From Pseudobdellovibrionaceae bacterium (lineage in GTDB: Bacteria; Bdellovibrionota; Bdellovibrionia; Bdellovibrionales; Bdellovibrionaceae), in contig JABWCN010000002.1 in assembly GCA_013359135.1 (NCBI GenBank), forward strand, positions 1-50,252: a DNA stretch of 50,252 bases, given 5' to 3'. This document shows, one piece after another, positions 9,915 through 12,516 of the stretch; the stretch's first letter is position 1; every line of letters starts with the position of its first letter. The notes under the pieces were generated by a model. That model did no database searches. It saw nothing but the letters and a program-made list of their open reading frames with translations, and was not told the DNA's origin. Both the position numbers and the translations under genes were made by a program.

Positions 9915-10193
9915 ATGAAATTAACAAATCATCATTTGGAAGTCATCGTTAATAAAGTGTTAAAAAGTTGGAAAGATCAAAATATCATACAATTTAAAAC
10001 CGATGAGAAGAAGGTTCAATCGAGGATGTTAGAAGCTCTGAAAGTAGATTTGCAAAAAGAAATCGACTTAGAGAAGGAAGTTAATAAAATGCTTGATGAT
10101 CTTGAGAGAAGTAATTCAGGACAATTCCAAAGATTTAAAATGTATCCTATGTTGAAGCAAAAGTTAGCTAAAGAAAAAAAGGTGATTTTATGA
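9915..10193 (+). CDS. DUF507 family protein, first copy
   Basis: A 92-residue, highly charged helical protein, divergent from but related to the product of the next gene. It starts MKLTNHHLE and keeps the family's pattern of an N-terminal helix followed by a charged helical region, but it lacks the conserved C-terminal KYYEEE block of the second copy. DUF507 proteins typically occur as adjacent pairs in delta-type proteobacteria; their function is not established. AGGA (9906-9909) is the ribosome binding site, lying in the nine-base gap to the divergent PBP gene. The stop overlaps the next start by four bases (ATGA), indicating translational coupling. Confidence 0.8.
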   Translation: MKLTNHHLEVIVNKVLKSWKDQNIIQFKTDEKKVQSRMLEALKVDLQKEIDLEKEVNKMLDDLERSNSGQFQRFKMYPMLKQKLAKEKKVIL

Positions 10194-10459
10194 TTTTATC
10201 AGAGGAACGACAAACTCACTGGGCACATTTGCTAACAGACGCAATTTGGAATGATGATCTTGTTGATTATTCTGATGAGGATCAAGCTTTGCGTATAGCT
10301 AAGAAAATCATTCAAGAATTTGTAAAAGAGGACCTTGAAATAGATAAAAAAGCGAAAGAAAAAGTGGCCTCTTTAAAAAGAGGAGTTATCGAGGGTTCTC
10401 CTGAATGGGAAGTTCTTTACAAAAAATATTATGAAGAGGAAAGAAAAAGACATGGCTAA
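10190..10459 (+). CDS. DUF507 family protein, second copy
   Basis: An 89-residue helical protein that fits the DUF507 family along its whole length, including an N-terminal EERQTHWAHLL helix, a region like IIQEFVKEDLEID, and the ending EWEVLYKKYYEEE. No signal peptide, metal site or catalytic motif is visible. Its start overlaps the stop of the first DUF507 gene by four bases. The GroES-like gene starts inside its last codons with an eight-base overlap, so the three genes form a tightly coupled operon. The role is unknown. The constant pairing suggests that the two proteins act together, perhaps as a heteromer, but that is inference. Confidence 0.88.
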   Translation: MILSEERQTHWAHLLTDAIWNDDLVDYSDEDQALRIAKKIIQEFVKEDLEIDKKAKEKVASLKRGVIEGSPEWEVLYKKYYEEERKRHG

Positions 10460-11030
10460 AAAGACTACGAAGACTAAGACAAAAGCTGTAAAAAAGGTGA
10501 ATGTAAAAGTTAAGACTGTTGCTAAAAAATCAGTACCAGTGAAAAAATCTTCTAAGAAAATAACGAAAAAAATAGCGCCTAAGAAAGTAAGTAAGACTTT
10601 ACCTAAAGCGTCTTCTAAGGTGTTAAATAAATCTAAGTTAGTGAGTAAACCTAAAAATTCTTCTAAGGCTAAGTCTGTAAATACTAAAGCTTCAGCTATA
10701 ACAACTTCTAAAATTGTTAAGATTGATTTTGCAGCGATGTTGACTCCGTTAGATGACCGAATTTTGGTGCAAATAAAAGAAGAAGAAAGAATGACTCCTG
10801 GTGGATTATACATTCCGGATACAGTGAGTGATGTTTCTGGAAACTTTAAGGGAACAGTTGTGGCTGTTGGCCGAGGGCATATGAATAAAAAAGGAAAAAT
10901 TAAGCCATTAGATGTTAAACCCGGTGACGTTGTGGTGTTTTCTCAGTTCTCTGGAAGCAAAGTGGATGTCCAAGGTCAAACAGTTATGTTTTTAAGAGAG
11001 TCTGATGTTCTAGGTGTTGTAAATAAATAA
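10452..11030 (+). CDS. GroES-domain co-chaperonin with a lysine-rich N-terminal tail
   Basis: The last 95 or so residues are a complete GroES domain: LTPLDDRILVQ, a mobile loop ending GGLYIPDT, GTVVAVGRG, PGDVVVFSQFSG and a final SDVLGVV. GroES rings cap the GroEL chamber. Before it lies a tail of about 90 residues made mostly of Lys, Ser, Thr, Val and Ala with many AKK, KSSKK and APKK repeats. It resembles histone H1 or bacterial histone-like tails and is far outside the usual 95-100 residue family length. I place the start at ATG 10452 because AGAGGA (10435-10440) stands 11 bases upstream; an in-frame ATG at 10431 would overlap the previous gene more. No groEL follows, so this is probably a second, specialised co-chaperonin. 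Confidence 0.88.
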   Translation: MAKKTTKTKTKAVKKVNVKVKTVAKKSVPVKKSSKKITKKIAPKKVSKTLPKASSKVLNKSKLVSKPKNSSKAKSVNTKASAITTSKIVKIDFAAMLTPLDDRILVQIKEEERMTPGGLYIPDTVSDVSGNFKGTVVAVGRGHMNKKGKIKPLDVKPGDVVVFSQFSGSKVDVQGQTVMFLRESDVLGVVNK

Positions 11031-11052: not shown

Positions 11053-12516
11053 TTGAAATTTTTAGAAATAAGTCAGATAAAAAGTAAAATAAGTATAGGT
11101 ATTTTGCTGGGTTTGGTGCTATCAAGTACTTTGCTTCCTAGTAAATCTTTTGGAACTAGTATTGACTGGAAGGGTGGCTACAGATTTGAATTTGTAGAAA
11201 TTGATAAGCCAAGCTTAACAAAACCCTCTTTACGTAAGTCTTATGGTTTAAATTATTTGTATTTAGCTCCTAGGGTGGTTGCTTCTGATGGAATTAACAT
11301 CGTCTCAAGGTTTGATATTTTTGGAGCTCAAGATCCTTATGCGAATTCTTATTTAGGTTCACAATGGGGAAAAGGAAATGATAATAACACTAACAATTCC
11401 AAATCTAATTCACTAGGTCAATCACCGGCAGGCTCAGCGATAAGAGTCAGTCAACTGTATTTAAATGTAGCTCAAGAAAATGCTTCTTTGATTTTAGGAA
11501 GAGCTCCTTTTGAGTTTGGTATTGGGATGAATTATAGTTCTGGTGAGGGTTTATTTGATCATTGGAATAACAATAGAGATCAGATAGCTTATAAAATTTT
11601 GATTAATAATCTGACTTTAATGCCCTTTTTTGCTCGTCATGCAGATGATGGTTTTCAGCAAGGTTCATATACCCAAGATGAAGGTTTATTGGTTCAGTAC
11701 GACAATAAGGATACAGGCAGTTTAATCGGTGTTATGTTAGAGCGTCGTAAGGCGACTCCAGCGACAAACGATATCACTACGGATGCAACTACAGATGTTG
11801 GTGCTATAGGCGATTCAAAAAGTGGTGATTTAAACATTCAAAGAACTAATTTTATTTTGGGCCGAGACTGGGATTCTTTTAGTTTTAGATTAGAAGCTGG
11901 ATTTTTATCTGGCGAGTTGGGAGTCCTGAAAGGAGATCAAAGTGTTAAAGCCAATGGTTATGGAGTTGCGACTGAATTGAATTTCAAAACAGATTCTAAT
12001 TGGAATTATGCTTTAAAAATGGGTATTGCAAGTGGTGATAATCCTGATACAAATGATTATGAAGGGTTTTTCTTTGACAGAAATTATGATGTTGCCTTCT
12101 TACTTTTCAATCATCGTCTGGGTTCTTACGATGTCCTTAGAACTGGGGCTATTAAAAGTTATAAAAATGCTGCTAGTGCAAGCATTGGTGTTGGTAATTC
12201 TTTAGATGATGAAACGATTTCAAATGCTTTTTATGTATCTCCTGTTATTAAATACCGTTGGAATGAGAAGTTAGATTTCAATCAGTATTTTACTTGGGCT
12301 CAATTGGTAACAAGTCCGTTAGCAAATAATGGAGCTTCAAAAGAGCTTGGTTTTGAATGGGATCTAGAGTTTGTTTATAAAGCCAGAGAAAAAATGCAAT
12401 GGGTGAATCAAGTTGGTTTGTTATTTCCTGGAGCTTCATTTAAATCTGATTCAGTAGCTGGCAGTGATAACAGTTTTACTTACGGGTTGACTTCAAAAAT
12501 TTCTATTCAATTTTAA
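11053..12516 (+). CDS. Secreted outer-membrane beta-barrel protein
   Basis: A 487-residue protein with a signal peptide (about 1-34, hydrophobic core IGILLGLVLSSTLL). After it comes a succession of alternating hydrophobic, aromatic-rich strands and polar turns, ending in Phe (KISIQF), the usual last residue of an outer-membrane barrel. A glycine/asparagine/serine-rich loop lies around 108-125. I do not recognise a specific porin family; alginate-export-like barrels are one possibility. The start is TTG at 11053, chosen because a strong ribosome binding site AAGAGGTG (11041-11048) precedes it and no ATG follows nearby. The gene begins 22 bases after the GroES-domain gene and may be read from the same transcript. 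Confidence 0.8.
   Translation: MKFLEISQIKSKISIGILLGLVLSSTLLPSKSFGTSIDWKGGYRFEFVEIDKPSLTKPSLRKSYGLNYLYLAPRVVASDGINIVSRFDIFGAQDPYANSYLGSQWGKGNDNNTNNSKSNSLGQSPAGSAIRVSQLYLNVAQENASLILGRAPFEFGIGMNYSSGEGLFDHWNNNRDQIAYKILINNLTLMPFFARHADDGFQQGSYTQDEGLLVQYDNKDTGSLIGVMLERRKATPATNDITTDATTDVGAIGDSKSGDLNIQRTNFILGRDWDSFSFRLEAGFLSGELGVLKGDQSVKANGYGVATELNFKTDSNWNYALKMGIASGDNPDTNDYEGFFFDRNYDVAFLLFNHRLGSYDVLRTGAIKSYKNAASASIGVGNSLDDETISNAFYVSPVIKYRWNEKLDFNQYFTWAQLVTSPLANNGASKELGFEWDLEFVYKAREKMQWVNQVGLLFPGASFKSDSVAGSDNSFTYGLTSKISIQF

Follow-up and report, generated by a model that had tools for sequence, protein, structure and literature searches.

Bdellovibrio bacteriovorus HD100 has two groES genes and one groEL, and the second of them, groES2 (Bd3349), lies apart from groESL (Lambert et al. 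2012, PMC3464611). There, groES2 is reported to be expressed late in predation, at 2-4 h, when progeny septate, and its repression runs through Bd0743, directly or indirectly; these are RT-PCR data, which report transcript rather than protein, and they come from another genus than the one analyzed here. The same text judges the 224-aa annotation of Bd3349 to carry a wrong start, because its first half is repetitive, and proposes a 117-aa protein beginning at an internal Met. It contains, as far as it was available, no discussion of a basic roof or of a function for the tail. Our literature search found no later work on Bd3349 and no description of a roof charge change in GroES2, and a search on the position of the GroES N terminus in the ring returned nothing usable. 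Two other kinds of protein are relevant. Bacteriophage T4 gp31 is an alternative lid for a shared GroEL and has no roof loops (PMC6318259). Lysine-repeat tails of HupB (PMC5676037) and of actinobacterial TopA (PMC7398561) raise DNA affinity or stabilize the DNA complex.

We analyzed a tailed GroES gene in a stretch of 50,252 nucleotides (the window) from a Pseudobdellovibrionaceae genome. Judged from phylogeny and gene order, it is the ortholog of groES2. It resembles Bd3349 as published in being a second groES, located apart from groESL in a genome with a single groEL, and in having a repetitive stretch ahead of the Cpn10 domain, as in the 224-aa annotation; it differs in that the authors' re-annotation omits the tail, which they did not regard as protein. 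The comparison was made through the ortholog from B. bacteriovorus kdesi (L136) in place of the HD100 record. L136 is tailed and has a Met from which exactly 117 residues remain, and we therefore take it to be the same protein as Bd3349. The gene is thus already known; what is new is that comparison among relatives shows the tail dismissed in print to be translated and preserved.

The groES2 locus and its genome

A preliminary description of the window had claimed a Lys/Ser/Thr/Ala-rich tail ahead of a full GroES domain at 10452-10740. The reading frame, its composition and the Pfam match bear out a 95-aa tail followed by a complete Cpn10 domain, but that interval holds the tail, and the gene itself extends to 11030 (Table 1). 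Residues 1-95 comprise 33% K, 24% S+T, 13% V, 11% A, and 1% D+E, giving a net charge of +30. Scanned in all six frames, the window has no other 95-codon stretch free of stops with a net charge above +12; the tail ORF is no chance reading frame. The Cpn10 domain (residues 97-190) scored 93.4 bits against a Pfam cut-off of 21.1, and 95.5 bits in the genome search. An AF2 monomer model built from a 43-sequence alignment predicted the Cpn10 core mostly at pLDDT >90, the mobile loop lower, and the tail as coil at pLDDT of about 50-60. With this model, Foldseek retrieved Mycobacterium tuberculosis Cpn10 (1p3h, E 1.7e-9) as well as 1aon and other Cpn10/GroES structures; the β-barrel Cpn10 fold with its roof hairpin is present in the model and these matches, and the roof segment aligns without gaps. 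Used alone as a query, the tail matched no other protein in its own genome and is therefore not a domain in wide use. In phage records, GroES genes were matched across the domain only and none across the tail.

Table 1. Features of the groES2 locus, in window coordinates
Feature	Position	Strand	Evidence or detail
DUF507 first half, 92 aa, operon partner	9915..10193	+	Pfam DUF507 profile positions 1-93
DUF507 second half, 89 aa	10190..10459	+	Pfam DUF507 profile positions 93-181
groES2, tailed GroES/Cpn10, 192 aa	10452..11030	+	ORF (ATG start 10452, TAA stop 11028-11030); Pfam Cpn10 93.4 bits; one clan with Bd3349-type orthologs, 100/98
N-terminal polycationic tail, 95 aa, predicted disordered	10452..10736	+	Composition; AF2 coil; relatives' dN/dS; in-frame indels
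GroES/Cpn10 domain	10737..11027	+	Pfam; AF2 and Foldseek; 39% identity to E. coli GroES
Mobile (GroEL-binding) loop, residues about 108-130	10773..10841	+	Triplet L-Y-I, residues 119-121
Roof hairpin GHMNKKGK, residues 142-149	10875..10898	+	Charge-reversed relative to GroES1 GRVTEDGK

The gene is preceded by two DUF507 half-genes that overlap each other by 4 nt, as they do in 47 of 49 loci. The groES2 start overlaps the stop of the second half by 8 nt, and overlaps of 8-17 nt occur in 50 of the 51 DUF507-bearing loci. One relative (L130) has a fused rather than a split DUF507 gene. The half-protein has three helices, and its sole fold match was the DUF507 structure 8t8k, which gives no hint of function; to our knowledge, this family has a solved structure and no known function. 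The block is flanked by a divergent penicillin-binding protein gene and a TIGR04551 outer-membrane-type gene, an arrangement conserved across the order. In the window, the latter lies at 11053-12516 on the + strand, with a sub-threshold TIGR04551 match, and a gene of this type adjoins groES2 across the order. Some lineages, including the Bdellovibrio-like genus g6, gave no DUF507 match, and groES2 still lies between the same outer neighbors there (genomes G010, G037, G056, G039, G071, G090, G069, and G061).

Two Cpn10 genes occur in the genome (3.84 Mb, 94 contigs, 99.98% complete): groES2 and a 100-aa tail-less groES directly before groEL (starting at C59:24555 and C59:24981, respectively). 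The latter is the sole groEL of the genome (G000:C59:24981-26483). The preliminary description had noted that no groEL adjoins the tailed gene, which is right, and had proposed a specialized second co-chaperonin, a role that would have been in doubt had this been the only GroES; the separate canonical groES-groEL pair supports the proposal. Since the genome has a single GroEL, groES2 would be a second lid for a shared chaperonin, without a private GroEL of its own. Of the complete genomes among the 80 searched (this one and its relatives), nearly all encode just one full-length GroEL. In G003, of the same genus, groES1-groEL and groES2 share a strand and are separated by only about 3-5 kb (G003:C1:80350-86101), unlike in the window genome. 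In G063 (same order, family f4; 2.1 Mb, scored 99% complete), a Pfam search found neither GroES nor GroEL; a bacterium lacking GroEL would be unusual.

Conservation and translation of the tail

We compared about 80 species from several families of one order, Bdellovibrionales. Among the matches listed, 63 of the 66 genomes in the window's family carry the tailed gene, as do at least 40 of the 75 other genomes from the order. Outside the order, the matches listed, where rare weak cases may be missed, include no tailed GroES, and the open frames in the ten genomes checked there, which had reported a second Cpn10 match, were at most 132 aa long. As a query in the genome-contig scan, the window protein found no relative; an alignment of the genus-g6 orthologs did. 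All 79 complete orthologs have a tail of 62-214 aa (median 108) with a net charge of +18 to +99 and a lysine content of 24-54% (median 34%), start codons having been chosen partly by the lysine-rich sequence after them. Beyond these 79, L064 is tailed but has no start of that form, and L127 is cut by a contig end. We also considered AT-rich composition as the source of the lysines. Lysine content falls mildly with GC (r = -0.50) across loci spanning 32-64% GC, and tails from loci above 50% GC keep a median of 29% Lys; this explanation was rejected.

Nine relatives without GroES2 (L216-L218 and L220-L225, in genomes G093, G008, G073, G089, G072, G065, G064, G067, and G070) keep the DUF507 pair and the downstream TIGR04551-type gene, and the site between them is empty, with neither tail nor domain. 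Judged from these sites, tail and domain are gained or lost together. GroES2 is missing from several lineages of the order and is consequently dispensable.

Substitutions in the tail follow the reading frame. Among 14 close pairs, rates at codon positions 1, 2, and 3 were 0.173, 0.129, and 0.331, and 31 of 31 indels were multiples of three; the test used nucleotide alignments, without codon bias, and some species are shared between pairs, so that the counts are not all independent. Tail dN/dS was 0.06-0.25 in nine pairs (Nei-Gojobori), and domain dN/dS was at most 0.08. The tail frame is open in 79/79 orthologs, as follows from ORF selection, and the stop counts in the +1 and +2 frames (418 and 684) merely show that the other frames are closed. 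The internal start that would give 117 aa lacks conservation: there is no ATG near it in 60 of the 79 orthologs, and an internal start with an SD-like motif occurs in only 4. At the tail start, an SD-like motif is present in 76/79, but in DUF507-bearing loci its GAGG sits in conserved Glu codons of DUF507, and its conservation alone is therefore weak proof of a start. From these comparisons, the tail is translated and under purifying selection, contradicting the discarded-start view, and is a real, conserved part of the protein. The published reading, a mis-called upstream extension with the true start at the internal Met before the domain (117 aa; Lambert et al. 2012), draws on the repetitive sequence, on homology to other GroES proteins beginning after the tail (PMC3464611) and on the kdesi Met, but the in-frame selection, the overlap of the tail start codon with the DUF507 stop, the scarcity of internal starts, and the loss of the candidate Met through a 10-codon deletion in a sister of the B. 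bacteriovorus-like sequences (L057 vs. L059, 93% tail identity) already contradict it on comparative grounds and leave it scarcely credible.

A Cpn10 domain with a basic roof

In the phylogeny, the GroES2 domains group as a single clan, apart from GroES1 and from other bacterial GroES (support 100/98), and they evolve faster than GroES1. Together with the conserved neighborhood, this clan places the window gene in the Bd3349 orthologous group. The best score against the canonical GroES subfamilies of NCBIfam was 87.8 bits, below the curated cut-off of 136, which marks GroES2 as a divergent Cpn10 and not a canonical GroES. It shares the Cpn10 fold, mobile loop, and roof hairpin with GroES1 of the same genomes and with E. 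coli GroES. GroES1, in contrast, is tail-less, its roof is acidic (E-D), and its gene adjoins groEL. The three mobile-loop columns aligned with the IVL of E. coli GroES are all hydrophobic in 79/79 orthologs. At the roof, the alignment separates the two classes: GroES1 has E55 and D56 in 21/21 sequences, whereas GroES2 has K in 67/79 and 74/79 at these columns, which align with E. coli E50-N51 within the LENGE segment (E50-E53). On this alignment, the roof hairpin is the clearest difference between the classes, with its charge flipped from Glu-Asp to Lys-Lys, and the basic roof is a second positive feature, independent of the tail.

These traits set GroES2 apart from other unusual lids. A gp31-type co-chaperonin was considered and rejected: gp31 (1g31) was a weak fold match (E 3.6e-3), and the roof is present in GroES2. 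GroES2 would resemble gp31 as an alternative lid for a shared GroEL, but it keeps and recharges the roof loops and adds a tail. The best PDB sequence matches were chloroplast Cpn20/Cpn23 (7ekq), which are also co-chaperonins of about 200 aa. Their length comes from a duplicated Cpn10 domain, whereas the extra length of GroES2 is a predicted disordered tail.

A possible tethered lid for GroEL

The preliminary description had likened the tail to those of nucleoid proteins. Its composition and lysine spacing agree with this. Across the orthologs, KK doublets are spaced 4-5 residues apart, with the probability of K at +4 and +5 from a K at 0.51 and 0.53 (0.38 in shuffled tails), and PAKK occurs 50 times against 13.6 expected. 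The curated thresholds for H1-like families were, on the other hand, not reached. Tails of two Bdellovibrio-group species matched histone H1-like HC2 at E 2e-6 and 5e-5 (Pfam, 24-28 bits vs. 40) and one matched hist_H1_lk_Burk at E 7e-5 (NCBIfam, 23 bits vs. 80), all sub-threshold, and the window protein matched none of the histone H1-like families in Pfam or NCBIfam, so that the likeness is compositional. Like the tails of HupB, actinobacterial TopA, and the HC2/AlgP type, the GroES2 tail is Lys/Ala/Pro-rich, acid-poor, and disordered, with PAKK/KAAK motifs. Those tails sit on DNA-binding proteins, mostly at the C terminus, whereas this one is N-terminal on a chaperonin lid.

We propose, at roughly even odds (a probability of about 0.5), that GroES2 is an alternative heptameric lid for GroEL whose seven H1-like arms anchor it to polyanions, of which nucleic acid is the most probable. 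As a heptamer, it would cap the cell's single GroEL in place of GroES1. Each ring would carry seven disordered N-terminal arms of about 60-210 residues, one-third lysine, amounting to about +210 charges for the window protein. The arms would bind polyanions without sequence specificity, the likeliest being nucleic acid in the form of nucleoid DNA or of ribosomes and RNA, and GroES2-capped GroEL chambers would thereby be held at a polyanion surface, while the basic roof may favor acidic clients inside the chamber. Because groES2 of B. bacteriovorus is switched on late in predation (RT-PCR; PMC3464611), such a tethered lid would serve folding at that stage. More tentatively, GroEL may be dockable on the chromosome or on ribosomes, being capped either by free GroES1 or by nucleic acid-tethered GroES2 with its basic ceiling.

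The arms could instead bind other polyanions or acidic partners, such as polyphosphate, acidic phospholipid, or acidic clients, and act as an electrostatic bait that recruits GroEL substrates. Composition alone cannot tell these targets apart, the basic roof fits acidic clients, and the ring architecture would provide avidity for any of them; the spacing of KK doublets and the enrichment of PAKK resemble DNA-binding H1-like tails, without being decisive, and we regard this reading as rather unlikely. Alternatively, the arms might turn inward, into the GroEL-GroES2 chamber, and alter its volume or charge instead of tethering the complex. The reversed roof charge does indicate a change on the side of GroES2 that faces the chamber. 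However, seven arms of about 10 kDa would fill much of a cage reported at 194,000 cubic angstroms for GroEL-GroES (PMC6318259) and leave little room for a client, and the arms differ threefold in length, the longest having 214 residues, which makes this arrangement improbable. More improbable still is a GroES2 that is no longer a co-chaperonin and whose Cpn10 ring merely scaffolds a sevenfold nucleoid-compacting polycation, a reading in keeping with its faster evolution and its distance from groEL but at odds with the invariably hydrophobic mobile-loop triplet and the low dN/dS of the domain.

Counting the tail as part of the protein corrects the published re-annotation, which had halved the protein and thereby concealed this feature. 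Co-chaperonins are usually treated as small uniform lids. If GroES2 is indeed a tethered alternative lid, an exchange of lids could direct one chaperonin to a particular location or class of clients. The role of GroES2 in predation becomes a directly testable question, and under the proposal, if true, the Bdellovibrionales would target protein folding in space or by developmental stage as they pass through their predatory cycle.
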